DNA from: Sphingomonas sp.
Lineage (GTDB): Bacteria; Pseudomonadota; Alphaproteobacteria; Sphingomonadales; Sphingomonadaceae
Assembly (NCBI GenBank): GCA_019753375.1
Contig: JAIELC010000032.1
Span: 62,001-126,000 of the forward strand
Length of the DNA: 64,000 nucleotides
Direction: 5' to 3'
A model generated the notes under the pieces. The model made no database searches. It was given only the letters and a program-made list of their open reading frames with translations, and was not told where the DNA came from. The position numbers were made by a program, and so were the translations under genes. Shown one piece after another: positions 13,471 through 34,781 of this stretch. The number at the start of each line of letters is the position of its first letter. The first letter of the stretch is position 1.

Positions 13471-14733
13471 ATGGCTCGAACTATAATTTCGGGCGTCGCT
13501 GGTCTTTCGGCCCGGTTGGGTCTTACCAAGACAAAATTTCGTGCGCCCGACGGCAAGCGACAGCTCCTCGTTGATGTATCTACCATCGCGCGGACTGACG
13601 CTGGTACCGGGATACAGCGCGTGGTTCGCGCACTGTGGCTTCAGCTTAGGGCCCTTGATCGTAATGCGCTGATCGTTACGCCGATTGTTGCTTCTCGCCG
13701 GAGCGGTTATCGAATTGCTCCTGCCGATTTTCTGCAAAATCCGATCATCGCAGACCCAGCGACCCTGCCACCGGTGGCGATCGCAGAGGGTGATGTCTTT
13801 CTTGGGCTCGATCTCGCCTTGCATGTCATTCCACACCGGGCGCACGAGTTACGACGGTGGCAAGCCTGTGGGGTGCGGCTTGGCTTTGTCGTCTATGATC
13901 TGCTGCCGGTTCTGCATCCCTATTGGTTCAGCCCAAAGATCAACAGGCGATATGTGCGCTGGATTGGCGTTGTCGCACGCCATGCAGATGAGATTCTGTG
14001 CATTGCTCGGGCGGTGCAGGACGACCTGGAAAACTGGATCGAAGCCAATATTCCTCGCCGGATCAAACGTCCCCGGATGTCGGTAATCCGGCTCGGGGGT
14101 GACATAGTGGCGAGTGCCCCGAGCGAGGGCTTGCCGATCGACGCCGAGGCGGTGCTCAGTTGGGCTCGCAATCGACCGACAATCCTGATGGTGGGCACAA
14201 TTGAGCCTCGCAAGGGATACGATCAAGCGCTGGCAGCATTTGAGTATCTGTGGTCGGAGGAGAGCGCGTCGGTGCGCGATCTGGTGCCGAGCCTGCTTAT
14301 CGTCGGTCGGCCCGGGTGGATGACCGAAGCGCTTCAGGATCGACTTCGCTACCACCGCGAGCAGGGGCGTCGCCTGCGTTGGATCGACGATGCCAGCGAC
14401 GAATATCTTGGAAAGCTATATGAGGCCAGCACGGGATTTCTGTTCGCGTCCCAAGCCGAGGGGTTCGGACTGCCAATCTTGGAGGCGGCGGGATACGGCA
14501 AACCCATTCTTGCCAGAGACCTGCCGGTATTTCGCGAGATTGCGCCCGATGGTGCTGCTTTCTTTCAGGCGACAACCGGTGAGGAGCTGGCCGGGCTGAT
14601 CAAAACTTGGCTGGCGGAAATTACGTCCGGCAAACCTGATTTAGCGCCTTCAATCTTGCCAGATTGGACCATGGCCGCCGAGGATTTAGTTGCCGCGCTA
14701 GGCCTTGATCTGCCGGTTGCTGGTAGAGATTGA
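13471..14733 (+). CDS. glycosyltransferase, GT4 family (TGIQRVVRA-type)
   Basis: MVGTIEPRKGYDQALAAFE ... SQAEGFGLPILEAAGYGKPILARDLPVFREIA. Confidence 0.85.
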   Translation: MARTIISGVAGLSARLGLTKTKFRAPDGKRQLLVDVSTIARTDAGTGIQRVVRALWLQLRALDRNALIVTPIVASRRSGYRIAPADFLQNPIIADPATLPPVAIAEGDVFLGLDLALHVIPHRAHELRRWQACGVRLGFVVYDLLPVLHPYWFSPKINRRYVRWIGVVARHADEILCIARAVQDDLENWIEANIPRRIKRPRMSVIRLGGDIVASAPSEGLPIDAEAVLSWARNRPTILMVGTIEPRKGYDQALAAFEYLWSEESASVRDLVPSLLIVGRPGWMTEALQDRLRYHREQGRRLRWIDDASDEYLGKLYEASTGFLFASQAEGFGLPILEAAGYGKPILARDLPVFREIAPDGAAFFQATTGEELAGLIKTWLAEITSGKPDLAPSILPDWTMAAEDLVAALGLDLPVAGRD

Positions 14734-14868: not shown

Positions 14869-15983
14869 ATGGAAATGCTTGGTAATATTGTCGATCGAAT
14901 AAGGCGCCTGGGTGCGCTTTTTCAACTTTGCGTTGTTGTGCCTACCATAGCAGCATTGTTGTATTTCGGGTTGTTCGCCTCTGACGTTTACCTCTCGGAG
15001 TCGCAATTCGTGGTCCGGAACCCCGAAAAACCAGCGGCTACGGGCCTTGGCGTTTTGCTGAAATCAACCGGCATCGGGGATGGAGGCGATGAAATTTATT
15101 CTGCAGAGAGTTTTGTTCAGTCGCGCGATGCGCTCTCGGCGCTTAACAAAGACGGTTTTATCAAGACTGCCTATACTCGGCCAACGATATCTATTTTTGA
15201 TCGCTTCAATCCGGTAGGCTGGGACCGGACATTCGAGGACCTTTACCGCTATTTTCAACGGCGCGTGACAATAGAGCATGAATCGACTGGATCGATAACG
15301 AAGTTAACAGTGCGGGCCTACACGCCGGCGGATGCCTACAAGATAAACCTGCGCCTGCTCGAATTGTCCGAAGGCTTGGTCAACAGGCTTAACGCCCGTG
15401 CGCGCGCCGATCTTATCCGATTCGCCGAGGTTGATGTCCGCGATGCCGAGCGAAAGGCCGCTGCCGCCGCACTCGCGCTTTCGTCTTATCGCAACAATCG
15501 AGGCGTCGTCGACCCAGAGAAGAGGCCACGGTCCAACTGCAAATGATCTCAAAATTGCAGGACGAATTGATTGCTACCAAGACGCAAATTTCAGAGCTTC
15601 GCACCTATGCACCGCAGAATTCTCAGATTGAGGTGCTCACGACACGCGAACGGCAACTTTCGTCGGAAATCGAACGTCAGTTGGGAAAGGTAGCGGGGGA
15701 TAACACCTCTCTGTCGAGTACGGCAGCAGGGTATCAGCGCGTGCAGCTTCAGAGTCAGTTTAGCGATCGTCAATTGGCGGTTGCACTGGCGTCCTTGGAA
15801 GACGCGCGCAACGAAGCGCGGCGCAAACAGTCTTATGTCGAACGCATCGTGCAGCCCAACATGCCGGATGAGGCGCTGGAACCAAGGCGGCTGCGCAGCA
15901 TTGCCGCGGCAATTATATTGGGCTTCGTAGCTTGGGGCATTCTAAGCCTGTTAATAGCTGGTGTGCGTGAACATAATGGCTAA
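14869..15983 (+). pseudogene. capsule export inner-membrane protein (KpsE-like, polysaccharide co-polymerase), split by a frameshift near 15522
   Basis: 14869-15546 and 15543-15983 are N- and C-terminal parts of one protein (TM - coiled coil - TM); frame lost at GAGAAG|AGGCCACGGTCCAACTG. Confidence 0.75.
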
Positions 15984-16794
15984 TTATTCACCGCAGAAAT
16001 TAATTGGCTATCGGCCGAGCTTGCGGGCGGGGCTTGAAATACAACTTCGAGTAATCGCTGCGTTGTTTATGCGAGAAGTCATCACGCGGTTTGGTCGACA
16101 TAATATCGGTTTCCTTTGGATATTCGTCGAGCCAATGTTGTTCACCACAGGTGTCACGACACTGTGGTATTTCGCTGGTGCAAATCATGGATCTAGCCTG
16201 CCGATCGTTGCATTTGCGCTAACGGGGTATTCAAGCGTGTTGCTTTGGCGAAACATGCCAAGTCGCTGTGTAGTAGCCATCGAGCCTAATCTAGCGCTCC
16301 TATTCCACAGGCCTGTGAAAGTAATCGACGTTTTTGTCGCGCGAATCCTGCTGGAAGGCGCGGGGGCTACGATGTCTTTTGCCATACTTTCTACATTGTA
16401 TATCGGCCTCGGCTGGGTTGCGCCGCCGGAAGACGTTTTAAAGGTGATGTTTGCTTGGGTAATGCTCGCATGGTTTGGAGGCGTTCTGGGGCTCTGCGTG
16501 GGGACGCTCGCTTTCTTTTCGGAGTCGGTAGATAAGCTCTGGCATCCAATGTCGTATTTGCTCTTTCCGTTGTCGGGAGCGGCTTTTCTCGTCTCCGCTC
16601 TCCCTCCAGCAGGGCAAAAAGTGATTTTGCTCTTGCCGATGGTCCATGGAACGGAACTGCTTCGAGAAGGCTATTTTGGGTCCAAGGTTCACAGCATTTA
16701 CGACGCAAATTATCTCATGCTGGCGAATTTGGTGCTGACTCTCGTAGGTCTGTTGTTGTTGCGGGCCGTTTCCAATCGCGTGGTGCCGGGATGA
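15976..16794 (+). CDS. polysaccharide ABC transporter permease (KpsM-like)
   Basis: AALFMREVITRFGRHNIGFLWIFVEPMLFT; followed by KpsT-like ATPase. Confidence 0.88.
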   Translation: MANYSPQKLIGYRPSLRAGLEIQLRVIAALFMREVITRFGRHNIGFLWIFVEPMLFTTGVTTLWYFAGANHGSSLPIVAFALTGYSSVLLWRNMPSRCVVAIEPNLALLFHRPVKVIDVFVARILLEGAGATMSFAILSTLYIGLGWVAPPEDVLKVMFAWVMLAWFGGVLGLCVGTLAFFSESVDKLWHPMSYLLFPLSGAAFLVSALPPAGQKVILLLPMVHGTELLREGYFGSKVHSIYDANYLMLANLVLTLVGLLLLRAVSNRVVPG

Positions 16795-17453
16795 TTGATC
16801 TTCAGGGCGTACAGCGCCGTTATCCTACGCGCCACGGGGACGTTACCGTTCTCAAGGGTGTGGATTTCAATATCCGACCTGGGGAGAGAGTTGGTATCGT
16901 CGGTCGTAACGGTGCCGGCAAATCCACAATGGTTCGGCTATTGAGTGGCGCGGAAAAGCCCGATGCCGGCAATATAACTCGTTCGATGTCGGTATCTTGG
17001 CCACTCGCATTTTCCGGCGGGTTTCAGGGCACGTTGACCGGGCTCGACAACTTAAGATTCATTTGCCGTATTTACGGGAAAAATTGGCGCGATCACGTCG
17101 ATTATATTCAAGAATTTACCGAGCTTGGTCGGTTCCTGAATGAGCCACTCAAGACCTATTCTTCGGGGATGCGGTCACGCCTGGCGTTCGCCCTATCGAT
17201 GGTTATTGATTTCGATTGTTTCCTGATCGATGAAATCATGGCGGTGGGCGATCATCGTTTTCATGAACGTTGCCGCATCGAGCTGTTCGAAAAACGGGCG
17301 CATCACGCGATGGTGATTGTTTCCCACGACGCCAGCTACGTCCGCAGTGTCTGTAGCCGCATTTCAGTACTCGAAAACGGCTATTTGCATAATTTCGACG
17401 ATCTAGATCAGGCCTATGAATTTTATTATCGGCCCGAGATTGCGCTCGCTTAG
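16791..17453 (+). CDS. polysaccharide ABC transporter ATP-binding protein (KpsT-like)
   Basis: GIVGRNGAGKSTMVRLLSG, YSSGMRSRLAFALSM, FLIDEIMAVGD; short 220-aa form. Confidence 0.92.
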   Translation: MIDLQGVQRRYPTRHGDVTVLKGVDFNIRPGERVGIVGRNGAGKSTMVRLLSGAEKPDAGNITRSMSVSWPLAFSGGFQGTLTGLDNLRFICRIYGKNWRDHVDYIQEFTELGRFLNEPLKTYSSGMRSRLAFALSMVIDFDCFLIDEIMAVGDHRFHERCRIELFEKRAHHAMVIVSHDASYVRSVCSRISVLENGYLHNFDDLDQAYEFYYRPEIALA

Positions 17454-17558: not shown

Positions 17559-17873
17559 ATGATGAAGGCAGCCATCTTCCAATACATCAACAGCTTCTAC
17601 AGCATTCGCAGGTGCCATGCATATATGGACGGCATCAGCCCGCTCGCATTCGAAGCCGCGGTGTGCGGAGTGAGATGGGTGACGGGCGCAATACCTTTAC
17701 AAGTCCATCTCTTTGATTACTTCAAGGATGATAGGGCGGCGCGTTTGATCGAAAGTGTGCAGACATGGCTCCGGCATCGGCGCGCTCTAGACGCCGAAGC
17801 GATAGCGACCTTGACCCGCTGGGCGGACAGTGCATTGGCGCGCGAGCGGTCACCTGGAATGATGCGAGTATGA
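17559..17873 (+). CDS. hypothetical 104-aa protein, possibly a C-terminal fragment of a capsule enzyme
   Basis: AGGAG before ATG; stop overlaps ATG of the next gene (ATGA at 17870). Confidence 0.5.
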   Translation: MMKAAIFQYINSFYSIRRCHAYMDGISPLAFEAAVCGVRWVTGAIPLQVHLFDYFKDDRAARLIESVQTWLRHRRALDAEAIATLTRWADSALARERSPGMMRV

Positions 17874-20677
17874 GCGCGGTAGGTTCTACTTCCCACCGAA
17901 CCATTGCGGCACCAAGCGGGTCCGAAGGGGCGTTTGCGCCGGTATTCGTCTACTCCGGCTACCGGAGTTCGAGCACTTGGCTTTGGAGCAAGTTTCGCGA
18001 GAATCCAAAGGCCTGTGCGTACTACGAGCCATTTAACGAAGGCTTGGCGACGATTTCGGCCGACACGCTGCAATCCGTCAGTCCAGAGTCCTGGCGCTCG
18101 CACCATCCGTCAAGTGGTGGGTACTGGGCCGAATATGCCCCGCTTCTTGCGAAAGAGCCTGGGGTGCCCTTGTTCCCGCTCGGCGACCAGAATGGCGAAC
18201 GGTTTATGGGTGCTGCGGGCATCGAAGGGACCCTAGATCCTGACGTCCACTCTTACGCCGCCTCGCTCATCGCGGCAGCGCAGGAACGTCGCCGGGTGCC
18301 TGTTCTGGCTTGCACCCGCATGCTTGGCCGCGCTGCCGGTTTTCGCAACGCCTTCGGCGGCCATCATTTTCTTCTCGTCAGGAATCTTTTCCAGCAGTGG
18401 ATTAGCTATTCTGGCCAATATCGGTTCGGCAATGATTACTTTTTGAGAAAACTTTATAGTTCCGTACAAGCACCATCCGCTGACAAATTCATAACTCATA
18501 TTCAAAGTTATTTCTCCGATGCGGAGACCGCAGATTTCTCCGACTGGATGACGCCCACCAGCCATGATCGAGTTTTCTGCTTCTTTGTCGCCTATCAGAT
18601 CTACGTGTTAATGGTCTCTCGCCGTCAAGTTGATCTAGTTATTGATGTGAACAGGTTGGCGCGGAGCGGCCCATCATATCGCCTCGAGGTTGCGGAACAG
18701 GTCGCAACTATATCCGGGCTCAGCGTGGATTTGAGCGATGCGCGCGAAAGCGTCGATTATCCGTATCAAACACTGAGATCGGTGGATGATTGCCGCATGC
18801 TGCTGCGCGCCATGGTGGATCGGCTTCTCGTTGAAGAAGCGCGTGGTGAAGACGATCGGTCCTTTATTGAAGGGTTGGTTTCGGATTTGTGGGAAGAGCA
18901 TGCGCGGTTTACGGCCATGACCGCCGGTGCTGCCGAGGTCATTGCCGTTCAGCAAGCCAGAGCCGAAGACGATGCGCGGCGCCTGCATGAGCTCGAGGCT
19001 TTAGAAGCGGAAACCGCAGCTCGATTAGCGGAATTGGATCGCCAGTCGATAGAGCGTATTGATGAGCTGACAGCGGCAGTAAACGCTGAACGGGCCTCAG
19101 GGTTGGCCGCTTCGGCTACGCTCACGGAGACCCAAGCCGCAGTCACGCTGGCAACCGAGCAGCTCGAGGCGGCTCTGCAGGATATAGACCGCCTTCAACG
19201 GCGGGCCGTCGAGGAGGCCAGCGCGCATTGCTCAGCCCGCGATCGAGCGGAGAGCAAGGCCGCCGAAGCTTCAACGCGCCTAGAAGAGGCGAAAGCCGCG
19301 CTGGACGAGTTGCAGACCAGAAGTGCGGAGCAGGCGCGCGACCATGGGATCGCCCTGAAATCTGCAGAAGAGCGTATTGCCGCGACCGAACGCGAGTGCG
19401 CCAAAATCGCTACCCAGCTCGAAACATTGCAGCAGGATCGTCTTGTGCTGGTTCGCGAGAACGGCCGGCTCGAGGGCCAATACGTCGCGCAAAGCGAAGC
19501 TCACTCCGCCAGATTGGCCGATGCGGAAGCCGCCAGCAACGTTCTGACTGCTCGCCTCGGCCGTGCCGAGCAGGCGCTCTTCAGCGCGCAGAGTGATGTT
19601 GCTGAGCTTCGTGGCGAGCTCGCATATCAAGCCAAGCGTCACCTAGATGATCTAGCTAAGGCCGAACAACTCTACGCGATTAAGTCCGACGCGTTTACGG
19701 TCGAGCTCGACGGGGTGCGGCAGCAAGCCGCCTCCGATATCCTTTCGCTTAATGATAGGCTCGCCCAGCTTCAGCACCGCATCGAATGGCGCGAGAGCCA
19801 ATTGCGGGCTGCGGTCACCCTGCTCGACGGCATGCCGCAGCCGCTCGTCGGACGCCCAGCGCTTCTGGCGGCGCTCATCCGCCCACGGAGACGCGCGGCG
19901 GAGCAGGCGGTGATATCCAAGCACCGGGAAGCTTTCGATAATTGGCACCGCGATTTGTTGTTGCCTCTCGACCCCAAAGTGTTGCAAGAACAGCAGATGT
20001 TGCTGGATAATCAGACTGTTAGTTTAGCTGCCGCAGTCGAACACGGGGGCATTGGGATCATGGAAAGCGACGAGCCGGTCACTTCTGTGCCGGCGCTGCT
20101 TGCGCCGCATGATCGGGCATTCATCCATACCGCCTACCGGGCAGTGCTCGGCCGTGCCCCCGATCTGGAGGGCGAGGCTTATTACCTGGCGCGCATTCGT
20201 GCTGGCAATCACAAGCTTGCCATTCTCAAGCAGCTGCGCCGCTCGCAGGAGGGCAGGAAGTTTATTCCAGGGGTCGCTGGTCTCGATCGCGCCATCAAGA
20301 AATACCGCTGGGCTACGTTGCCCGTATTGGGCGTTATGGTACGGCTGCTCTTAGGAGAAGAAGGCAATGGTGCGACACATCGCGCCCTACGGGTGCTTGC
20401 CAATGACGTCGGCCGTCTCCGCTCAGAACAGACCAGATTTCAGACAGAGCAGGCTTCCTTAGCGCGCGCGATGCGAGAGCTTTCTGCGCGTTCGTTTGGA
20501 GAAGCAGATGGCGCTATCTCGGAGCGCCCGGCTGATCTACAGCCCGCAACCCAAGCTGCAAACGGGTTTGGTGTGGAGGCACAAGAATTCGATCCGAGCC
20601 TTGGTCGAGGTGCTTCCCACATCCTTCATCTCCTCGCTTCAGCCATGCGGACACGACGGATACAAAGGGCTGGTTGA
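17870..20677 (+). CDS. sulfotransferase-like domain + long coiled coil + DUF4214-like domain protein
   Basis: PVFVYSGYRSSSTWLWSKF (5'-PSB-like), FLLVRNLFQQWISYSGQY (3'-PB-like); about 300 aa of E/A/R/L-rich heptads; HTAYRAVLGRAPDLEGEAYYLARIRAG. Confidence 0.7.
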   Translation: MSAVGSTSHRTIAAPSGSEGAFAPVFVYSGYRSSSTWLWSKFRENPKACAYYEPFNEGLATISADTLQSVSPESWRSHHPSSGGYWAEYAPLLAKEPGVPLFPLGDQNGERFMGAAGIEGTLDPDVHSYAASLIAAAQERRRVPVLACTRMLGRAAGFRNAFGGHHFLLVRNLFQQWISYSGQYRFGNDYFLRKLYSSVQAPSADKFITHIQSYFSDAETADFSDWMTPTSHDRVFCFFVAYQIYVLMVSRRQVDLVIDVNRLARSGPSYRLEVAEQVATISGLSVDLSDARESVDYPYQTLRSVDDCRMLLRAMVDRLLVEEARGEDDRSFIEGLVSDLWEEHARFTAMTAGAAEVIAVQQARAEDDARRLHELEALEAETAARLAELDRQSIERIDELTAAVNAERASGLAASATLTETQAAVTLATEQLEAALQDIDRLQRRAVEEASAHCSARDRAESKAAEASTRLEEAKAALDELQTRSAEQARDHGIALKSAEERIAATERECAKIATQLETLQQDRLVLVRENGRLEGQYVAQSEAHSARLADAEAASNVLTARLGRAEQALFSAQSDVAELRGELAYQAKRHLDDLAKAEQLYAIKSDAFTVELDGVRQQAASDILSLNDRLAQLQHRIEWRESQLRAAVTLLDGMPQPLVGRPALLAALIRPRRRAAEQAVISKHREAFDNWHRDLLLPLDPKVLQEQQMLLDNQTVSLAAAVEHGGIGIMESDEPVTSVPALLAPHDRAFIHTAYRAVLGRAPDLEGEAYYLARIRAGNHKLAILKQLRRSQEGRKFIPGVAGLDRAIKKYRWATLPVLGVMVRLLLGEEGNGATHRALRVLANDVGRLRSEQTRFQTEQASLARAMRELSARSFGEADGAISERPADLQPATQAANGFGVEAQEFDPSLGRGASHILHLLASAMRTRRIQRAG

Positions 20678-23600
20678 TGCGTCTTGTCATTGATCTACAG
20701 GGAGCTCAGACATCCAGCCGGAATAGGGGCATTGGTCGCTATAGCATGTCATTGGCCAAGGCGATGGCGCGCAGTCGTGGCGATCACGAGGTGTTTATCG
20801 CCCTGAATGGCCTGTTCCCTGACACAATCGAGCCCATTCGCGCGGGGTTCGACGGCCTGCTGCCGCAGGACAACATCCGGGTGTGGACGGCGCCCAACCC
20901 GGTCAGTGCCCTCGATGCAGCGCATGATGCCCGCCGCCAAGCGGCTGAGTTGCTCCGCGAACAGTTTCTAGCCAGCCTTTCCCCTGACATCGTGCTGGTG
21001 AGTTCGCTGTTCGAAGGGCTGATTGATGATGCGGTCACCAGCATTGGCGCGCTGTCAAGCAAAGTGCCAACCGCGGCTATTCTTTATGATCTTATTCCAT
21101 TGATTCACCGCAACATCTATTTGCAGAATACGGTTGCTGAGCGTTGGTATGAAAACAAGCTTGATCATTTGCGCCGAGCTAATCTGTTGTTGTCGATTTC
21201 CGCATCGTCAGAGCAGGAAGGCATAGATTATCTGGGCTTCGACCCCCGGCAGGTCAGCAATATCCTAACGGCTGCCGAAGGGCATTTCACGCCCGGGGAC
21301 GTCTCGGCCGAGGTTCAGAGGCGCCTGGCAGGGCAATACGGTTTGAACAAGCCCTTTGTCATGTACACCGGGGGTATCGACCATCGCAAGAACATCGAGG
21401 GCCTGATCGCTGCCTATGCCCGGCTTCCGGCCACGCTTCGACGCGCTCATCAATTGGCGATTGTGTGCTCCATCCAGCCAGCGGATCGCGAGCGCCTGCT
21501 CGAGCTCGCCCGCGAAGAGGGGCTGGAGAAGGGCGAACTAATCCTCACCGGGTTCGTCCCAGAAGAAGACCTGTTGGCGTGCTATCGGGCCTGCAAGCTA
21601 TTCATCTTTCCATCCTGGCACGAAGGGTTCGGCCTGCCGGCGCTGGAGGCCATGCACTGCGGCAGAGCAGTGATTGCGGCCAACACTTCCAGCCTCCCGG
21701 AAGTGATCGGGCGTGAGGACGCTTTGTTCGATCCTTTCGATACCGATGACATCGCCCTAAAGATGGAGCGGGTGCTCAACGACGACGCGTTCCGTACCGA
21801 GCTCGAGCGACACGGGCCGGTGCAGGCTCGGCGATTCAGCTGGGACGATACGGCGTCACGGGCTTGGCAGGCCCTAGCAGTGAGCGTCGGCGCTCTTGGC
21901 AAAGGCTCATCCGATCCGGACAGGCGCCCTCGACTGGCCTTCGTGTCGCCGCTCCCGCCCGAAGCGAGCGGCATCAGCGACTATAGTGCCGAACTGTTGC
22001 CCGAACTCGCCCGGCACTATCGCATCGAGGTCATCGTGGCGCAGGAGCAGGTGGCCGATGCCTACGTGCGCGCCAATTGCCCAATCCGCGACGTCGACTG
22101 GTTCCGCCGCCATGCACATGAGTTCGACCGGGTGCTTTACCACTTCGGCAACTCTCCCTTTCACAGCCACATGTTCGATTTGCTGCATGAGCACCCCGGC
22201 GTGGTCTTGCTTCATGACTTCTTTCTCTCAGGCATCGTAGCCCATCGCGACTGGACCGGCGAAACCTCTCATGGCTTGGAGAAAGCCTTGCTGGTGGGGC
22301 ATGGTTGGTCGGCCGTCAAAGAGCGTTTCCAAACGCAGGACCCCGCAGAAGCGGTGTGGGCTTATCCCAGCAACTTGGAAGTGTTGCAGGATGCCCTGGG
22401 CGTTATCGTCCACGGCGACTATTCCCGCCAGCTGGCGCAAAAATGGTATGGGCCTCATGCCGCCGACGACTGGCGACTGATACCACTAACGCGCAGGCCC
22501 GCTGGTACCGTCGATAGCCGAGCAGCGCGGCGTGCCTTGAGCATAGGGGAAGATGCCTTCGTCGTTTGCAGTTTCGGCCACCTCGGCCCCACTAAGCTCA
22601 ACCACCGCCTCCTCGCCGCTTGGGGCTCATCGCCCTTGGCGCAGGATCCGCGATGCCGATTGGTGTTCGTGGGGCAGAATCATGGCGGCGATTACGGGGC
22701 TGAACTGGTGCGTGCCATTCGTGAGGCGTCGGGTGGCAGCAGCATCGAAATCACCGGTTGGGCCGAAAGCGACACCTTCCGCCGGTGGCTGGCAGCTGCC
22801 GATGTTGGTGTGCAGTTACGCACCTTCTCCCGCGGCGAAACCTCGGCAGCAGTGCTGGACTGCATGAATTACGGTCTGGCAACCATCGTCAACGCCAACG
22901 GGTCGGCTGCCGAACTTGATCGAGAAGCAGTGTGGTTGCTGCCGGACGACTTTGATGACCTTCAGCTTGCCGACGCCTTAAAGACGCTGCACGCCGACCC
23001 GCTGGTCCGGAGAAGTCTCGGCAATAAGGCTCGCCAAGTGGTTGCGGAGCGCCACGCTCCCCGCCGCTGCGCCGCCCTATATGCGGAGGCCATAGAGGGC
23101 TACTACGAGAAGACGGCAGTTGGCGTACGAGGTTTGCTGGCGGCTATCGCCTCGCGAGAACCTGCTCTGCCGTCGCGCGAATGGGCATCAGTTGCCGCCG
23201 CTATCGCCAAGAACTCACCACCCAAACCGCGAAGAAAGCAACTCCTGGTCGATATTTCAGTGCTGGTCCAGCACGATGCAAGAACAGGAATTCAACGTGT
23301 CGTTCGCGCGATTTTGAACCACTGGTTGCGTAGCCCACCGGACGATTGGCAGGTCGAGCCAATCTACGAAACGATGGAAGCGGATGGCTATCGCTATGCC
23401 CGTAAATTCATCAGCCGCTTTCTTGGCGTACCGGAAGATTGGGCTACTGATGATCCAGTCGAGGCAAATCCCGGCGATGTATTCTTCGGTTTGGATCTGC
23501 TTTCCCATGTCCTTCCCAGACAAATTTCGGTTCTGGAAGATTGGCATCAACGCGGTGTTAGCGTACAATCCATTATTTACGATCTGCTGCCTGTGTTGGT

Positions 23601-24426
23601 GCCCGAAGTGTTCCCTGATGGGGCTAGTGAAGGGCATCAGCGATGGTTGGAAGCAGTAGCACAGTTCGATGGCGCTGTTTGTATTTCTCGCGCTGTAGCT
23701 GATGAACTTCAAGCATGGCTTCAAACCTTCGGGCCACAACGTGAGCGACCTTTTGCCGTTAAGTGGTTCCACCTTGGCGCCGACACGGAAAACTCCGCGC
23801 CAAGCACCGGTTTGCCGGGCGATGCTACGAAGACAATTTCATCACTCAGCGTTACACCAAGTTTTCTTTCGGTAGGAACCATCGAACCGAGAAAAGGTCA
23901 GGCCCAAACTCTTTCTGCCTTCGAGTTATTGTGGGCAAGAGGTGTTGATGCCAACCTCGTACTTGTCGGCCAGCAAGGTTGGAAGATGGAGGGCCTAATC
24001 AAGCGCCTGCAAAACCATCCCGAGTTCGGGAAGCGCTTGTTCTGGCTGGCCGGGATCAGCGATGAATATCTCGACAAGGTCTATGCGGCCAGCACATGTC
24101 TTATCGCTGCGAGCGAGGGCGAAGGCTTTGGGCTGCCTTTGATCGAAGCTGCGCAACACAAGCTGCCGATAATCGCCCGAGACATCCCGGTGTTTCGCGA
24201 AGTCGCGGGAGAACACGCCTTCTATTTTTCTGATAGTAAGGAACCGGAGGTCCTCGCTCGGGCGATTGAGGCATGGCTCGAGCTGGATCGCGCGGGGCAG
24301 GCTCCAAGTTCAGATACTATGCCTTGGTTGACCTGGGCGCAGAGCGCCGAGGCTCTGCTTGCATGCGTGCTGGGGCAATCGCCCGCCTATCGGCAATGGC
24401 GTCCCGACGGCTCGCTCCGCCTGTGA
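20674..24426 (+). CDS. 1250-aa multidomain glycosyltransferase with three GT-B/GT4-like modules
   Basis: Three successive modules: SWHEGFGLPALEAMHCG; ITGWAESDTFRRWLAAADVGVQLRT; SEGEGFGLPLIEAAQHKLPIIARDIPVFREV. Confidence 0.85.
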   Translation: MMRLVIDLQGAQTSSRNRGIGRYSMSLAKAMARSRGDHEVFIALNGLFPDTIEPIRAGFDGLLPQDNIRVWTAPNPVSALDAAHDARRQAAELLREQFLASLSPDIVLVSSLFEGLIDDAVTSIGALSSKVPTAAILYDLIPLIHRNIYLQNTVAERWYENKLDHLRRANLLLSISASSEQEGIDYLGFDPRQVSNILTAAEGHFTPGDVSAEVQRRLAGQYGLNKPFVMYTGGIDHRKNIEGLIAAYARLPATLRRAHQLAIVCSIQPADRERLLELAREEGLEKGELILTGFVPEEDLLACYRACKLFIFPSWHEGFGLPALEAMHCGRAVIAANTSSLPEVIGREDALFDPFDTDDIALKMERVLNDDAFRTELERHGPVQARRFSWDDTASRAWQALAVSVGALGKGSSDPDRRPRLAFVSPLPPEASGISDYSAELLPELARHYRIEVIVAQEQVADAYVRANCPIRDVDWFRRHAHEFDRVLYHFGNSPFHSHMFDLLHEHPGVVLLHDFFLSGIVAHRDWTGETSHGLEKALLVGHGWSAVKERFQTQDPAEAVWAYPSNLEVLQDALGVIVHGDYSRQLAQKWYGPHAADDWRLIPLTRRPAGTVDSRAARRALSIGEDAFVVCSFGHLGPTKLNHRLLAAWGSSPLAQDPRCRLVFVGQNHGGDYGAELVRAIREASGGSSIEITGWAESDTFRRWLAAADVGVQLRTFSRGETSAAVLDCMNYGLATIVNANGSAAELDREAVWLLPDDFDDLQLADALKTLHADPLVRRSLGNKARQVVAERHAPRRCAALYAEAIEGYYEKTAVGVRGLLAAIASREPALPSREWASVAAAIAKNSPPKPRRKQLLVDISVLVQHDARTGIQRVVRAILNHWLRSPPDDWQVEPIYETMEADGYRYARKFISRFLGVPEDWATDDPVEANPGDVFFGLDLLSHVLPRQISVLEDWHQRGVSVQSIIYDLLPVLVPEVFPDGASEGHQRWLEAVAQFDGAVCISRAVADELQAWLQTFGPQRERPFAVKWFHLGADTENSAPSTGLPGDATKTISSLSVTPSFLSVGTIEPRKGQAQTLSAFELLWARGVDANLVLVGQQGWKMEGLIKRLQNHPEFGKRLFWLAGISDEYLDKVYAASTCLIAASEGEGFGLPLIEAAQHKLPIIARDIPVFREVAGEHAFYFSDSKEPEVLARAIEAWLELDRAGQAPSSDTMPWLTWAQSAEALLACVLGQSPAYRQWRPDGSLRL

Positions 24427-24591
24427 GGGAGCGACCATCGCTTGCATACCCGGGTAAGACATCGACACTGCTACCGCGCATGCAGACCATTGGAGCGCCC
24501 GGCCTCCTCATTTTCGGACCTTTACCTCCTGCTGCCGGCTGGGACCCACCGCCTGCGTGCTTGAAGTGATGCTCGCGGTGCCTGAATTTGA

Positions 24592-24783
24592 GATTCGGAT
24601 GTCCTCCGCTCCAGCTATGACATGCACAACATTAGCGGCATCCTATGCGGTGACGCTGTCCGTTCCAACGGAAAGGAGAGTGAGTTCCTTGCTGGTCCCG
24701 GCTCAATGCTACCGAACGGTAGCTATACCTTTCGAGTAGATATTGAAAAACTGCCAGGAAATGCTGGTGAGCTCAAAATCTGA
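24592..24783 (+). pseudogene. remnant reading frame without start codon
   Basis: Open frame DSDVLRSSYDMHNISGILCGDAVRSNGKESEFLAGPGSMLPNGSYTFRVDIEKLPGNAGELKI*; protein-like composition, no start. Confidence 0.4.
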
Positions 24784-25200
24784 ATAGTTCATGATGAACG
24801 TCGTTCAAATTAGGATCGACCGAAGTAACTTTAGATATAAATTCTGTATCTAACCATGCTGTCAATCTGACGGACTATTCTGATCAGATAATTTATAATT
24901 TCGAAGTTATTTCAAATGTAATTTATAATGGTCCATTTATATAAAAAATAATCATGATTAAGGTTATTTAATAAAATTATAATTTATTTTTTCTTGAAAG
25001 CCCGTGTAATATGTTAATGACTAAATTTCAATTGATCAATATATTGCTTAGTTATATAATAAAATATGTGGATGGTTTTATTTATACATCAAAATGTGAT
25101 ATGATTTTTTTATAATAATCGTGTTATTTGTATTTACTATTTTTTGACATTTAATATCATAATTTGATATATAGATCGAATTTTGCCGTTTTTAATTTGC
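24784..25200. other. AT-rich non-coding island
   Basis: Strikingly A/T-rich by eye, no ORF, inside GC-rich surroundings. Confidence 0.85.
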
Positions 25201-25210
25201 AAAGCTTGGG

Positions 25211-25235
25211 AACCGAACGAACAAGCGGTTCGGTT
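25211..25235. repeat. inverted repeat AACCGAAC-N9-GTTCGGTT
   Basis: Perfect 8-bp arms upstream of gmd. Confidence 0.7.
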
Positions 25236-25397
25236 TGTACCTTTGTTTGCAGACAGCCGATGTTATATTTGAGTCTCTGACGTTTTGATTTTCCGACAAG
25301 CGGACAGATCGTATTGGCAGGAATTCACGCGAGTCGACCAAGCTCTTGCGAGACAAGCATACCGACGGGCGTTATCAAGCCGGATCTCAATCACTAG

Positions 25398-26450
<1,053 letters not shown>

Positions 26451-26499: not shown

Positions 26500-27399
26500 A
26501 TGAGCCGCGTCCTGATCACCGGTATCGATAGTTTCACCGGCCGCTATGCAGCGAAGGCGCTGGTGGAGCGCGGGCATGAAGTGGTTGGCATGGCGCGCGA
26601 CCGTTCTGTTACGCACGATGCCCCAGTGTCCGAAACCTATTATGCCGACCTTGCTGACTCGGGCGCCCTCTCCGACGCTGTGCGCGATGCACGACCTGAC
26701 AAGGTTCTTCACCTCGCAGCGATTTCTGCCGTCACGCACGGCGATGTTGCGGCGATCTATCAAACCAATCTCGTCGGATCGCGCAACTTGTTGCAGGCGA
26801 TCGTGGAAGCCGAATCGCGCCCGGATGCTGTGCTGCTTGCCAGCAGCGCGAACATCTATGGCAATGCGAGCGAAGGTCAGATCGACGAATCCGCGGCGGT
26901 TATGCCGGTCAACGATTATGGTGTCAGCAAGCTCGCGATGGAGCATGTCGGACGTATTTACAGCGACCGATTGCCGATCATCATTGTCCGACCGTTCAAT
27001 TATACGGGAGTGGGGCAGGGTACAGGCTTTATCATCCCCAAATTGATCGACCACGCCCGCCGTCGGGAAACCCGGATCGAGATGGGCAACCTGGATGTCG
27101 CGCGCGACTTTTCCGACGTCCGTACCGTCGCCGATTGCTATGCGCGCCTGCTCGAAGCGCCGGGTGCTATCGGCAAGACCCTAAACATATGCTCCGGGCA
27201 TCCATATGTGCTGCGTGACGTTGTAACGATGGTTGAACGGCTCGCCGGCCTGTGTTTCGACATAGGCGTCAACCCCGCCTTTTTGCGTAAATCGGACCTT
27301 GCCACGCTCTTTGGCAGCCGGGCATTGCTGGAACAGGTAATCGGTCCCGTCGACATGCCCCCGCTGGAGGACACGCTGCTGTGGATGCTGCGAACCTAG
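26500..27399 (+). CDS. NAD-dependent epimerase/reductase, probable GDP-6-deoxy-D-mannose reductase
   Basis: Extended SDR (VLITGIDSFTGRYAA; YGVSKLAME), directly after gmd. Confidence 0.78.
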   Translation: MSRVLITGIDSFTGRYAAKALVERGHEVVGMARDRSVTHDAPVSETYYADLADSGALSDAVRDARPDKVLHLAAISAVTHGDVAAIYQTNLVGSRNLLQAIVEAESRPDAVLLASSANIYGNASEGQIDESAAVMPVNDYGVSKLAMEHVGRIYSDRLPIIIVRPFNYTGVGQGTGFIIPKLIDHARRRETRIEMGNLDVARDFSDVRTVADCYARLLEAPGAIGKTLNICSGHPYVLRDVVTMVERLAGLCFDIGVNPAFLRKSDLATLFGSRALLEQVIGPVDMPPLEDTLLWMLRT

Positions 27400-28520
27400 G
27401 CCAGGGACATTTACGAGTCGCGTTTTCGGTCGATGCGCTTATGCCAAATCTGACAGGTATTGGCCGCTATTGCTGGGAGCTGACGCAACGCGTGCCGCGT
27501 GATTCACGTATGGCTGGGCTATCATGTTTCAGGGGGGCGCAGTGGTTTGACGATCCCTCGATCCTCTTGCACGGCGATGGCCAACAACGCCGCCGTCGGG
27601 GACAAGGCTTGCGTCGCCGATTGGATAAATGGTGGCGGTACGATCGGTTTGGCAATGGGATTGTCCATGCGCCCAACTATTTTCTTCCTGATTGGGCAGA
27701 GCGGGGGATGGCGACAATCCACGATCTGTCGGTCTTCAAATTTCCCGAAACTCACCCCGCCGCAAGGATTGCCGCGTTCGAGGCCAATTTTACGAAGACG
27801 GTTGATCGCGCGCGACTGATCTTGACAGACTGCGAATGGATAAGACGTGAGCTGATCGAATTCACCGGACTTGGGGAGGATCGCGTCTGGTCGGTCCCGC
27901 TCGGTGTAGGGCCGGAATTTGCACCGCGTTTGCGCTCGGAGATCGAGGGGCCGCTTCAATCACTGAAGCTTCAACCGGGCGGCTATGGGCTCTGCATTTC
28001 GACGCTTGAGCCCCGCAAGCGAATAGATCGGTTATTGTCGGCATGGCAGATGCTGCCGTCGCCGCTGCGGTTACGCTATCCGCTGGTGATTGCGGGATCG
28101 ACCGGTTGGCAGAACACACCGCTACTCGACCAGATTGACCAAGGGCTGCACGAAGGCTGGCTGAAATACCCCGGCTTTGTTTCGAACGCGGATTTACCAC
28201 TGCTTTATGCTGGTGCACGGGTTTTCTGCTATCCGTCGCGCTATGAGGGATTTGGCTTGCCGCCGCTTGAAGCGATGGCAAGCGGCGTGCCGACACTGAT
28301 CGCGGGGAACACATGCTTGACTGAAGTGGCTGGCGAGGCCGCTATGGTGATTGAGCCGGAGGACGTTCCGGGCTTTTCGGTAGCGATCGCTCGTGCGCTA
28401 GAGGACGAAAGTTGGCGTGAAGGGGCGATTGCGGCCGGTATCGCGCAAGCGGCGCGGTATAGCTGGGCCGAATGCGCGACACGCACCGTTGATGCTTATG
28501 ATCATGTTGCCAAGTCGTAG
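27381..28520 (+). CDS. glycosyltransferase, GT4 family (mannosyltransferase-like)
   Basis: ISTLEPRKRIDRLLSAW ... PSRYEGFGLPPLEAMASGVPTLIA; GTG start. Confidence 0.85.
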   Translation: MDAANLGQGHLRVAFSVDALMPNLTGIGRYCWELTQRVPRDSRMAGLSCFRGAQWFDDPSILLHGDGQQRRRRGQGLRRRLDKWWRYDRFGNGIVHAPNYFLPDWAERGMATIHDLSVFKFPETHPAARIAAFEANFTKTVDRARLILTDCEWIRRELIEFTGLGEDRVWSVPLGVGPEFAPRLRSEIEGPLQSLKLQPGGYGLCISTLEPRKRIDRLLSAWQMLPSPLRLRYPLVIAGSTGWQNTPLLDQIDQGLHEGWLKYPGFVSNADLPLLYAGARVFCYPSRYEGFGLPPLEAMASGVPTLIAGNTCLTEVAGEAAMVIEPEDVPGFSVAIARALEDESWREGAIAAGIAQAARYSWAECATRTVDAYDHVAKS

Positions 28521-28808: not shown

Positions 28809-30038
28809 ATGAGCAGGCAGCCAGGCAATTTGCCACAAGTGAACCATATTACGTTTGTCCGGCCAATCTTGCTCAGCGCTATTGTTGGGCTGAGCTGCTT
28901 GGCATTGTCGGGATGTTCGTTCATTTCAGCCGCTGGCCCAAGCGCCCGCGCGGTTAATCGGGCAGGAACAAGCGCGGTCGCGGGCAATGCCGATATCCGT
29001 ATCGTTGATGTTTCCGACTCCGTTGCTCGCCGGATTGTTAATGAAGAGCATGTTGGTCTGTTTTCAGACCGGCTGGGAGACGGCATTCCAATCGGGTCGG
29101 TCGTCGGTCGTGGCGACGTACTCGATATCGCGATTTGGGAAGCGCCTCCTGCCGCATTGTTCGGCGCCACAAGTGGTGACAGTCGGCTCGCCTCGGCGGC
29201 CGCAACTAACGCGCTCGCGCGCGGGACGACCTTGCCTGAGCAAATGGTCAACAGCGAAGGGCGTATTACCATCCCCTTCGTTGGGTCGGTGGTTGCTGCA
29301 GGCCGTACGCCGCAGCAGATCGAAAGGGACATTACCAGCCGGCTTATTGGCAAAGCTCACGAGCCGCAGGCGATTGTCCGGTTAACCCGCAATGCGAGCG
29401 CGAACGTGACGATTGTGGGCGACGTGGCGAACAGTGCGCGTGTGCCGCTTACCGCCCGCGGTGAGCGGTTGCTCGACATTCTGGCGGCGTCGGGTGGCGT
29501 TAAGCAGCCCGTCGGCAAGATGACGATCCAGATCACGCGGGGGGCGACGGTGGCGTCGATGCCACTCTCGGGCGTGATCAATGATCCGCGCCAGAACATC
29601 CGGTTGCAGGCCGACGATGTCGTGACGGCGCTCTACCAGCCGTTCAGTTTCACCGCGCTTGGTGCGACCGGGCGCAATGAAGAATTGCCCTTTGAGGGTA
29701 CCGGCCTGACACTCGCACAGGCGCTGGGTCGTGTCGCCGGGCTGCAGGATCAGCGCGCCGATGTGCGCGGTGTTTTCATATTCCGCCTCGAGGACCCATC
29801 AGTTCTTGGTCTGCCACCGGGTACAGAAGTGCGCACGACGCCCGATGGCAAGGTGCCCGTTATCTACCGCGTGGACATGAAGAATCCGGCCACCTTCTTC
29901 ATCGCACAGGGCTTCCCAATCAGGAATAAAGACGTGCTCTATGTATCGAACGCGCCTTTAGCCGATGTACAGAAATTTGTGAGCATTATCTCCTCGACGA
30001 TTTTACCAATCGCGACCACGGCAGCTATTATCCCATAA
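28809..30038 (+). CDS. outer-membrane polysaccharide export protein (Wza/KpsD-like)
   Basis: Lipobox LALSGCSF; VGRGDVLDIAIWEAP; VNSEGRITIPFVGSVVAAGRTPQQIE. Confidence 0.88.
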   Translation: MSRQPGNLPQVNHITFVRPILLSAIVGLSCLALSGCSFISAAGPSARAVNRAGTSAVAGNADIRIVDVSDSVARRIVNEEHVGLFSDRLGDGIPIGSVVGRGDVLDIAIWEAPPAALFGATSGDSRLASAAATNALARGTTLPEQMVNSEGRITIPFVGSVVAAGRTPQQIERDITSRLIGKAHEPQAIVRLTRNASANVTIVGDVANSARVPLTARGERLLDILAASGGVKQPVGKMTIQITRGATVASMPLSGVINDPRQNIRLQADDVVTALYQPFSFTALGATGRNEELPFEGTGLTLAQALGRVAGLQDQRADVRGVFIFRLEDPSVLGLPPGTEVRTTPDGKVPVIYRVDMKNPATFFIAQGFPIRNKDVLYVSNAPLADVQKFVSIISSTILPIATTAAIIP

Positions 30039-32032: not shown

Positions 32033-33295
32033 TTACCCGGCCGTTCCTTTAGCGAGGGCAAATTCAGTCCGTACGTCGAATTTGTCGTCTGAAATCAGCC
32101 GTTCAACACTGTTTTCCAGCAGCGTCGCGATCGCCGATTCGCTGGCAAGGCCGCCGCGTACGAGTGATCTGTGGTGCAGGACTTTTTTAAAGGCATGCCA
32201 AAGCTCGGCGTCGGGAAGCTGCGGCGCGCACCAGAAGGTGTCGAGCGCGCCCTGGTGCGTGACGCCAGCGATGTCATATACCGCGTCGCCGAGCACAATG
32301 ACCGGTGTGCCGGTTTCCAGTGCTAACGTACCCGACGTGCTGTTGACGCAGACAACCCCGACTGAATTTTGCGCCAGAGACTGCAGATCGCCGCCGTCAA
32401 TATGGATTATCCGGTCCGCCAGGCCGAGCGCCCTCGCGCGCTTTCGGAAAAACGCGGGCCAGCTGTGGAATCCGCAATCGAGCGGATGTTCTTTCACAAC
32501 CAGCAAGCTGTTCGGTGGGGCATTCTGAGCAAAGCTGTCGAGCACATAATCGGCGGCAATTTCCATTGATCCAAATGGGGAGTGCGCGCGGATCTGATAA
32601 TCGCCCGTCAATTGCAGCGGGAACAGGAAATAGTCGCGATGTTTAATTGCAGCGAGCGCCTCGTCCGCCAGGCGTTGACGCCGCCTTGCAAGGAGAAACT
32701 TCTTAATCCAGCCCAGACCTTCCCCGATGATAAATCCTTGGCGGTGGTTGTGGTAATAGGGAAAGCGCAGCCGTCCAGTAACGATGTAATGATAGTGCCA
32801 GTATGAATCATGCGCGCGGCGCTTGAAGCTGGCGGTGATCGGCGGCAGCTGGGGCAAAGCGGGTAACCCGCGGGCTGCCGCTATAATTTCCGCCGGGTCG
32901 CGGATAATTGTCGAGTGGCCATTTACGCCATCGCGCTCCAGCGTCATCCAGTCCGGACGAATGTAACCTTCCTCGAACACGTGGATGCGGATGCCGCGCA
33001 ACTTAGCCAGCCTATGCGCGGACAAATGCATAGGACGGCAGTCGCCATATAGAACGAGGTCAGTGACGTTGTGTTGCCGAACGAAGCGGTCAAAGAACAT
33101 AGGCCAATCGGCCGGTGTACCGCGAAACTCGATGCTACCTTCGCGCCAGTCGCGCCGGTCGCCGCCATTCAGATTGATCCGGTAGATGCCCATGCCGCGC
33201 CGCAGCAATTCGTCACCCAGTCGGCGGAAAAACGGTCCGGGCGGTCCTTGCAGGAACAGAAAAGTCCGCGGTGGCAACGCAATTGGTTTAATCAT
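32033..33295 (-). CDS. capsular polysaccharide export/Kdo-transferase-associated protein (KpsS-like)
   Basis: FLQGPPGPFFRRLGDELLRRGMGIYRINLNGGDR; HVFEEGYIRPDWMTLERDGVNG. Confidence 0.85.
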   Translation of the reverse strand: MIKPIALPPRTFLFLQGPPGPFFRRLGDELLRRGMGIYRINLNGGDRRDWREGSIEFRGTPADWPMFFDRFVRQHNVTDLVLYGDCRPMHLSAHRLAKLRGIRIHVFEEGYIRPDWMTLERDGVNGHSTIIRDPAEIIAAARGLPALPQLPPITASFKRRAHDSYWHYHYIVTGRLRFPYYHNHRQGFIIGEGLGWIKKFLLARRRQRLADEALAAIKHRDYFLFPLQLTGDYQIRAHSPFGSMEIAADYVLDSFAQNAPPNSLLVVKEHPLDCGFHSWPAFFRKRARALGLADRIIHIDGGDLQSLAQNSVGVVCVNSTSGTLALETGTPVIVLGDAVYDIAGVTHQGALDTFWCAPQLPDAELWHAFKKVLHHRSLVRGGLASESAIATLLENSVERLISDDKFDVRTEFALAKGTAG

Positions 33296-34781
33296 GGCGA
33301 CGCCCCCATGCATTGAAAAACAAGTTAAGCCTTCCTTGCCATTGGCGCAAACGAACAACTGGTGTGATGATGGCCGTTGCACCCGCTTCCATGCGCTGGA
33401 CGAGCATCTCAACAGGGCAAGGTAGTCTGGAGACGGGGTCAAAATATATCGGATAGAGGATCAGCGTCGCTACCACGAGTTCATCTATCTTTCGGCGTCG
33501 CGTTCGCCGCGCGGACACCTGCTGCAAGTCGGTAGTGACTCCCCAACCAGCGAAGAAAGGCGCGCCGTGCGCCACGACCTCCTTGCCTCGCATCAGACCT
33601 TCAAATCCCGCCAGGGAGGTAATGACATGGATGGCTTCGACGCTCGCCAATATTCCTGCAATGGGCGCCCGTCGCTCCACCAGATCGGCGAACACAAGAG
33701 CATCGCTGTCGGCTATTCTGCCTTTGCGGTGACCTGCCTCGACGTCCGGATGCGGCTTGTAGATGAGATAAGCGTCCGGCTCTAAGGCCCGCGCTTGCCG
33801 CAAGAGGTCGAGGTTGCACATGCCAGCCCCACCAGTCAGTACCGACCGATCGTCTTCTACCTGTCCTGTCACAAGGACTTGGCGGCGCGCGCCAGCGGGG
33901 CGGACAAATGGCTCAGCGTCCAGGCCATACTTACTGATCCCGGCGACTATAAGCCTTTCGCGTAACGCCGCTGCACGCGCCAGGGTTTCATCGTCGATAT
34001 CGGCATGCTGTAGTATCGTCTCAAGGTCGCTGGGCTGGCCGGGGTCGAAATAGATGCCCTGGCGGTCGACCACGATCGACAGGGGCGGGATGCAATCGGC
34101 GCCGAGCCCTGCCGACCTGATAAATCCATCCTCAAGCTCGGCGATCTGGCGGCCTGAGGCAAGCAGGGCATCGAGTGCGGCGCGCGGGGTGCGGGATTTC
34201 CAGACGGCGACGATGCCCGGGCGTTTCAGGTCGCCGACCTGGCGAATGTAATGCGGGCCATGCATGCCGTCCCACAGCATCGCTGTCATGGTCGATCGCT
34301 TCCACCGCGCGACGCCCATGACGCCGGCAATCTCCCGGTTGTTCATGATCAGCCTGCGCCATTCGCTAAGCTGGGCAATGGTCTTTGGGGCATTGGTGGT
34401 CGTGCCATCAAAGGGCGAGACGAAGCGCCATCCGACAAGCACGTGGCGCTCGACCAGCGTTGTGGTCTCATACCCCTGATCACTGGCGCAATCGGCAAAG
34501 CGGCCGTGCCCTTCCAGCTTCACGCGGAGCCCGGCAATGCGGGCGAGCAGCGCGTTTTCGTCATCAGCCTTGCCGTGCCATTCCAGCTTGCCGTCAAACG
34601 TCGACCAGGGATCATCTTCGCCCCAAAAGGCGCCCCCCACGCGGTGCTGACGCATCAGGGACGCACATTCTTCAGCGGTTTCTCGTTCAACTGGTGCGGG
34701 GGCATCCTGGACGGCGAGCAAAGGAATTTTCGCGCCGGGGAAGGGTGGGCATCGAAGCACAGACAGCGGCGGCTGCGGCAT
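33288..34781 (-). CDS. capsular polysaccharide Kdo transferase-like protein (KpsC-like)
   Basis: ELEDGFIRSAGLGADCIPPLSIVVDRQGIYFDPGQPSDLE; YLIYKPHPDVEAG. Confidence 0.85.
   Translation of the reverse strand: MPQPPLSVLRCPPFPGAKIPLLAVQDAPAPVERETAEECASLMRQHRVGGAFWGEDDPWSTFDGKLEWHGKADDENALLARIAGLRVKLEGHGRFADCASDQGYETTTLVERHVLVGWRFVSPFDGTTTNAPKTIAQLSEWRRLIMNNREIAGVMGVARWKRSTMTAMLWDGMHGPHYIRQVGDLKRPGIVAVWKSRTPRAALDALLASGRQIAELEDGFIRSAGLGADCIPPLSIVVDRQGIYFDPGQPSDLETILQHADIDDETLARAAALRERLIVAGISKYGLDAEPFVRPAGARRQVLVTGQVEDDRSVLTGGAGMCNLDLLRQARALEPDAYLIYKPHPDVEAGHRKGRIADSDALVFADLVERRAPIAGILASVEAIHVITSLAGFEGLMRGKEVVAHGAPFFAGWGVTTDLQQVSARRTRRRKIDELVVATLILYPIYFDPVSRLPCPVEMLVQRMEAGATAIITPVVRLRQWQGRLNLFFNAWGRRHD

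Follow-up and report, generated by a model that had tools for sequence, protein, structure and literature searches.

In a 64,000-nucleotide stretch of Sphingomonas DNA (hereafter the window), we describe a sulfotransferase–coiled coil–DUF4214 protein that, as far as its domains and gene neighbourhood allow, is probably a terminator and molecular ruler of the WbdD type with a PAPS-dependent sulfotransferase head, encoded in a KpsC/KpsS-type capsule locus. We read the gene in this way because different enzyme heads are exchanged on one C-terminus and because the slot that WbdD holds is occupied by such proteins in other bacteria. In the Klebsiella pneumoniae and Escherichia coli O-antigen systems, a coiled-coil ruler carries the terminator at its far end, the length of the coil sets the length of the polymer, and the polymerase is recruited by the region next to the membrane (PMC11231755, PMC3482155). 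A 2025 review considers that a chain-length-controlling factor of ABC-transporter-dependent capsules, should there be one, is yet to be identified (PMC12220298); for the known group 2 (KpsC/KpsS/KpsMTED) capsule loci, neither a terminator nor a ruler has been described. The terminating groups in the terminator papers covered are methyl, methylphosphate and Kdo, sulfate not being among them, and neither a sulfotransferase terminator nor a report of sulfotransferases together with WbdD and Wzt was found in the literature searched, which consisted mostly of papers available without subscription. The locus is a concrete candidate for capsule length control that would combine a ruler of an established type with a novel cap, and it suggests that some bacteria may control the length of their capsule chains and end them with sulfate.

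A three-part protein with a sulfotransferase-like head

The source genome is a Sphingomonas MAG of 2.6 Mb in 158 contigs. In the ORF list the ruler gene spans 17765-20677 and encodes 970 aa from the ATG at 17765 or 935 aa from the ATG at 17870; the second start is the likelier, since in the orthologues the sulfotransferase domain is preceded by about 25 aa. An earlier note on this DNA, made from the letters alone, had taken 17870..20677 (forward strand, as are all features below unless stated) for a fusion protein, and the gene is real, supported by the ORF list and by two syntenic full-length orthologues (L047, L048). Alignment, coil prediction and Pfam likewise bear out the three parts then proposed: an N-terminal domain of ~350 residues with PAPS motifs is followed by a coiled coil (residues 396-688), and the C-terminal part includes DUF4214. 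This architecture is unlikely to be due to chance, as it is conserved in both orthologues with 60-62% identity in the sulfotransferase domain and the same synteny.

The N-terminal domain (17894..18979) is very likely a PAPS-type sulfotransferase, a call that rests on invariant PAPS-site residues, on Pfam matches among relatives and on structural modelling. Relatives of the head were taken from 50 loci found in one scan of public genomes, and 43 sequences were aligned. The alignment places a 5′-phosphosulfate loop at R67..S70-T71 (17963-17977) and a 3′-phosphate site at R206..S214 (18380-18406), with a conserved E88 between the two. In domain numbering, R24, S27 and T28 of the loop, E45, and R163 and S171 of the 3′ site do not vary among the 43 relatives, and the window protein has kept all of them, in line with the PAPS-binding-like motifs that the earlier note had seen at the N-terminus. 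No Pfam model of a sulfotransferase recognizes the window protein itself, and a whole-protein sequence search of the PDB returned no match; PF13469 (Sulfotransfer_3) matches six of the 43 relatives (best E 4.9e-7). An AlphaFold2 model of the head, from which plasmid-derived alignment rows were left out, reached pLDDT 92.5 and pTM 0.90, with its final helix pointing towards the coil. Its first ten Foldseek matches in the PDB, including Stf0 and tyrosylprotein sulfotransferases, are all PAPS sulfotransferases, at modest scores (best E 5.8e-3, TM ~0.3); these matches point to the PAPS fold that the earlier note had proposed to look for with AlphaFold. The 14-3-3-like PDB matches from a profile search with the head were discarded as spurious. 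With the Stf0, tyrosylprotein and glycosaminoglycan PAPS sulfotransferases (PF13469/PF00685 superfamily) the head has the 5′/3′-phosphate-site motifs and the fold matches in common, but it has no detectable pairwise sequence similarity to solved structures and, unlike them, carries a coiled coil. An APS kinase is encoded in the same genome and, although this is non-specific, PAPS should therefore be available.

These invariant residues bear on the view that the protein is mainly a scaffold bringing the WbdA-like polymerase to the membrane, its head being inactive or secondary. Coiled coils commonly act as scaffolds, and DUF4214-only and TPR proteins occupy the same slot in some related loci (see below), but an inactive head is hard to reconcile with PAPS-site residues and an E45 that are intact here and unchanged across 43 relatives, and we give the scaffold view little credence.

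The coiled-coil rod (residues 396-688; 18950..19828) was delimited by COILS-type prediction with shuffle and protein controls, with a scoring matrix for which absolute probabilities are approximate. Within it, 246 residues reach P>=0.5, whereas shuffling the segment ten times gave 0-170, and three neighbouring proteins gave 0 coil residues by the same calculation. The coil of about 300 residues claimed earlier is matched by this 293-residue span, which exceeds all ten shuffles, would measure ~43 nm if continuous, and is roughly twice the calculated span of O9 WbdD (125 residues) and three times that of O8 WbdD (95 residues). A stretch of 357 residues from residue 334 is free of proline. The Syntaxin model of Pfam also matches the coil, though below its cut-off, and we regard this as an artefact of coiled-coil sequence. 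In Sphingomonas glacialis, two sulfotransferase-coil proteins (L061:9695-13060 and L057:9842-12202) have highly repetitive coils of very different lengths, as if length varied through repeat number.

From the end of the coil, a conserved block that is also found in FkbM-methyltransferase-headed homologues extends to about residue 905 (19742..20479), and within it the DUF4214-like domain proposed earlier is recognized by PF13946 (residues 781-829; 20105-20251), whose curated cut-off is passed at E 3.9e-7. For the C-terminal 281 residues, the AlphaFold2 model reached pLDDT 45.8 and was left out of the fold search, and the window protein has no strong basic amphipathic helix after the coil.

The capsule locus and the neighbouring polymerase

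KpsC, KpsS, KpsM, KpsT, KpsE and KpsD are all encoded in the window, together making up the gene set of a group 2-type ABC capsule. Upstream of the ruler gene lie a GT4 glycosyltransferase (13471..14733; Pfam and synteny), whose orthologues elsewhere sit between KpsT and the ruler gene, then a KpsE of the BexC/CtrB family (14869..15983), the ABC-2 permease KpsM (15961..16794; Pfam/NCBIfam) and the ATPase KpsT (16791..17453; Pfam), which at 220 aa is without the Wzt_C cap-reading domain. KpsE is split by a frameshift into two ORFs, which NCBIfam recognizes as halves and between which tblastn with the L047 KpsE shows a change of frame; its orthologues are single ORFs. The frameshift may stem from the assembly or, if genuine, would put the exporter out of action. 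Downstream, a protein with three GT4 modules by Pfam (20674..24426) overlaps the ruler gene by 4 bases, such that the position between KpsMT and a multidomain glycosyltransferase given in the earlier note is confirmed on both sides. Judged by sequence, this protein is a WbdA homologue: its first GT4 module is 40-48% identical to the WbdA-type polymerases of plasmid-borne O8/O9 loci, and in those loci the protein before the polymerase is a true WbdD.

Further downstream are gmd, encoding a GDP-mannose 4,6-dehydratase (25416..26450; TIGR01472 over cut-off), and a probable rmd, encoding a GDP-4-keto-6-deoxymannose reductase (26500..27399), which is assigned by Pfam, by its position after gmd and by an orthologue in L010 that is named rmd; it passed no equivalog model. 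The pair suggests GDP-D-rhamnose and hence a D-rhamnan-type polymer. A second GT4 glycosyltransferase (27381..28520; Pfam) and a KpsD-type outer-membrane polysaccharide export protein (28809..30038; PF02563) follow, and two beta-Kdo transferases are encoded on the reverse strand, one KpsS-like (32033..33442; PF05159 at 2e-74, NF050054 below cut-off) and one KpsC-like (33288..34781; PF05159 at 1.4e-38). Thirteen related genomes were tested and all have KpsC/KpsS-type genes, several of them next to this cluster. The 989 bp of low GC that separate the polymerase from gmd (24427-25415) contain no clear gene, where orthologous loci have a gene of 356-372 aa. We considered that a remnant of the methyltransferase-like gene that follows the polymerase in L037 and L048 might lie there, but tblastn gave no support for it.

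Exchange of heads and occupants of the WbdD slot

The search for the same architecture beside multi-glycosyltransferase genes that the earlier note had proposed was rewarded in two other Sphingomonadales, the orthologues introduced above, where the same sulfotransferase-coil-DUF4214 protein (head 60-62% identical) is found in the gene order KpsE-KpsM-KpsT-GT4-ruler-polymerase-x-gmd-rmd-GT4, although the simple gene caller missed the permease and rmd of L048. Sulfotransferase-coil proteins also lie beside KpsEMT in two Novosphingobium, a Sphingobium and an Erythrobacter (L049-L052), with no DUF4214 detected in the same protein. In three further loci, from genomes G284 (L037) and G081 (L038) and from a Sphingobium plasmid (L010), the head that a coil links to this C-terminus is an FkbM methyltransferase. 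The C-terminal block of the window protein is 44% and 46% identical to those of the FkbM-headed L037 and L038, and 44% and 41% identical to those of the sulfotransferase-headed orthologues. A further FkbM-coil protein with a diverged, double-DUF4214-like end occupies the same slot in G334 (L111). In the polymerase tree head types do not cluster, and its supported branches imply at least two origins of sulfotransferase heads and at least three of FkbM heads. The DUF4214 block is too short for its tree to resolve, and a single clade of sulfotransferase heads is not rejected by it (AU p 0.156); the argument for exchange therefore rests on the identities and the polymerase tree. Such natural exchange of heads on one C-terminus suggests a modular route to polymers of set length with a chosen end group.

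In alpha-, beta- and gammaproteobacteria alike, the slot immediately ahead of the WbdA-like polymerase is filled by a true WbdD (O8, O9), by a methyltransferase-coil protein or by a sulfotransferase-coil protein. For example, an Aromatoleum contig has the order manC-manB-(wzm)-wzt-[sulfotransferase-coil]-WbdA-like, which is the operon order of the annotated O8/O9 plasmids, its wzm being inferred from a gap. A sulfotransferase gene directly follows a Wzt with Wzt_C in seven loci (Aromatoleum, Pseudomonas, Methylococcaceae, Rhodocyclaceae, Nitrospirota, Rhodobacteraceae and Halieaceae), and a WbdA-like polymerase then follows in three of the seven (Aromatoleum, Methylococcaceae and Rhodobacteraceae). 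The post-coil regions of those three match WbdD by hhalign (probability 96.8%, E 2e-10), and a profile of the three tails, run with hmmsearch against ~1,170 ORFs, recovered O8 WbdD (7e-7) and O9 WbdD (3e-5) plus other slot proteins. This WbdD-type tail, common to relatives L083, L091 and L095, is dominated by an SxSWRxTxPLR motif that is absent from the window protein.

Many slot proteins, both WbdDs included, also carry a motif near AxxIYxxL at the extreme C-terminus. Scored with a matrix built without them, seven of 11 independent slot proteins outscore 95% of the 854 control C-termini (Mann-Whitney p 5e-4), and C-termini of this kind are found in L130, L133, L139, L083, L047, L048, L037 and L040. 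The motif is common to bona fide WbdD and to unrelated proteins encoded just before WbdA-like polymerases, and we propose it as a candidate polymerase-docking peptide; the window protein has a degenerate version, with a score exceeded by 6% of control C-termini.

These comparisons also weigh on two other readings of the head. First, the sulfotransferase might decorate the chain along its length, the coil and DUF4214 serving only as a tether to polymerase and membrane and measuring nothing. Internal sulfate is known from capsules of ABC-exporter clusters, as in Vibrio KMM 8419 (PMC11641403), and the window KpsT has no domain with which to read a cap. The exchangeable FkbM heads and the occupation of the true WbdD position point instead to end-capping, and the coil-less sulfotransferases of the family are mostly away from exporters: an ABC exporter adjoins coil-bearing sulfotransferases in 11 of 19 loci and coil-less ones in 2 of 24 (Fisher p 6e-4, uncorrected for relatedness). 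On balance we consider decoration along the chain unlikely. Second, the enzyme might act on another target, such as a lipid anchor, the Kdo linker or another glycan, with its place in the operon reflecting co-regulation, and the family does have standalone members away from exporters. That head and coil belong to a single polypeptide whose polymerase-adjacent C-terminus is kept across heads, and that the WbdD slot is occupied in several bacterial classes, makes such a target highly improbable.

A few related loci have neither head nor coil in the slot, which there holds DUF4214-only or TPR proteins (L040:10056-10622, L041:9537-10127, L117:10126-10593 and L136:4016-4996). Capping would thus not be obligatory in those where the slot holds only a DUF4214 protein. 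In one of these loci KpsT is fused to a GT90-like domain in a protein of 687 aa (L041:11184-13247).

A possible sulfate cap and its relation to known terminators

For the window protein as a terminator and ruler, we propose that the C-terminal end (the DUF4214 block and tail) would recruit the WbdA-like polymerase of the next gene, while the coiled coil would keep the sulfotransferase tens of nanometres away, such that only sufficiently long chains would reach the head. The head would then sulfate the non-reducing end and so stop elongation, and the polymer, probably of D-rhamnan type on a KpsC/KpsS Kdo linker, would leave through KpsMTED. PAPS activity, chain-end sulfation, recruitment of the polymerase, control of length and the identity of the polymer are all inferred here. 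As KpsT is without Wzt_C, the sulfate cap would determine chain length without serving as a signal for export, which fits the loci whose slot has only a DUF4214 protein. More broadly, it may be that interchangeable terminator-rulers set chain length in Sphingomonadales KpsC/KpsS-type capsules with sulfate as a terminating cap, and that the same heads substitute for WbdD in the Wzm/Wzt O-antigen-type loci of other Proteobacteria and of Nitrospirota, a tentative generalization that we regard as about evenly poised.

The analogy with WbdD and WbdA drawn in the earlier note stands in large part, given the WbdA homologue next door, the FkbM heads on the same C-terminus, the sulfotransferase-coil proteins that hold the WbdD slot elsewhere and the WbdD-like tails of relatives. 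Like WbdD of E. coli O9a/O8 and K. pneumoniae O3/O5, the protein has an N-terminal enzyme head, a long coil and a C-terminal region, and its gene lies directly upstream of a WbdA-type multi-glycosyltransferase polymerase in an ABC-exporter locus. The window system departs from WbdD in the DUF4214 tail, which takes the place of the SxSWRxT tail of WbdD, and in the KpsT without Wzt_C, unlike the cap-reading Wzt of WbdD systems; as the tail differs and the cap-reading partner is absent, the window protein is not strictly a WbdD. Its head is moreover a sulfotransferase where that of WbdD is a kinase-methyltransferase or methyltransferase, and its locus is a KpsC/KpsS capsule locus, complete in export and linker genes, where WbdD systems make und-PP O-antigen.

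The terminating module is likewise at the distal end of a coil in K. pneumoniae O12 WbbB, O4 ORF7 (GT137) and O7 ORF6 (PMC11231755), whose heads are Kdo transferases or methyltransferase-kinases rather than sulfotransferases. In O12 and O7 the polymerase is fused in the same chain, an arrangement that an Ensifer adhaerens plasmid also seems to have, with sulfotransferase, coil and GT4 in one protein (L011:5971-9717). In an Acidobacteriota locus, a sulfotransferase is joined directly to a GT2 (L084:7431-9272).
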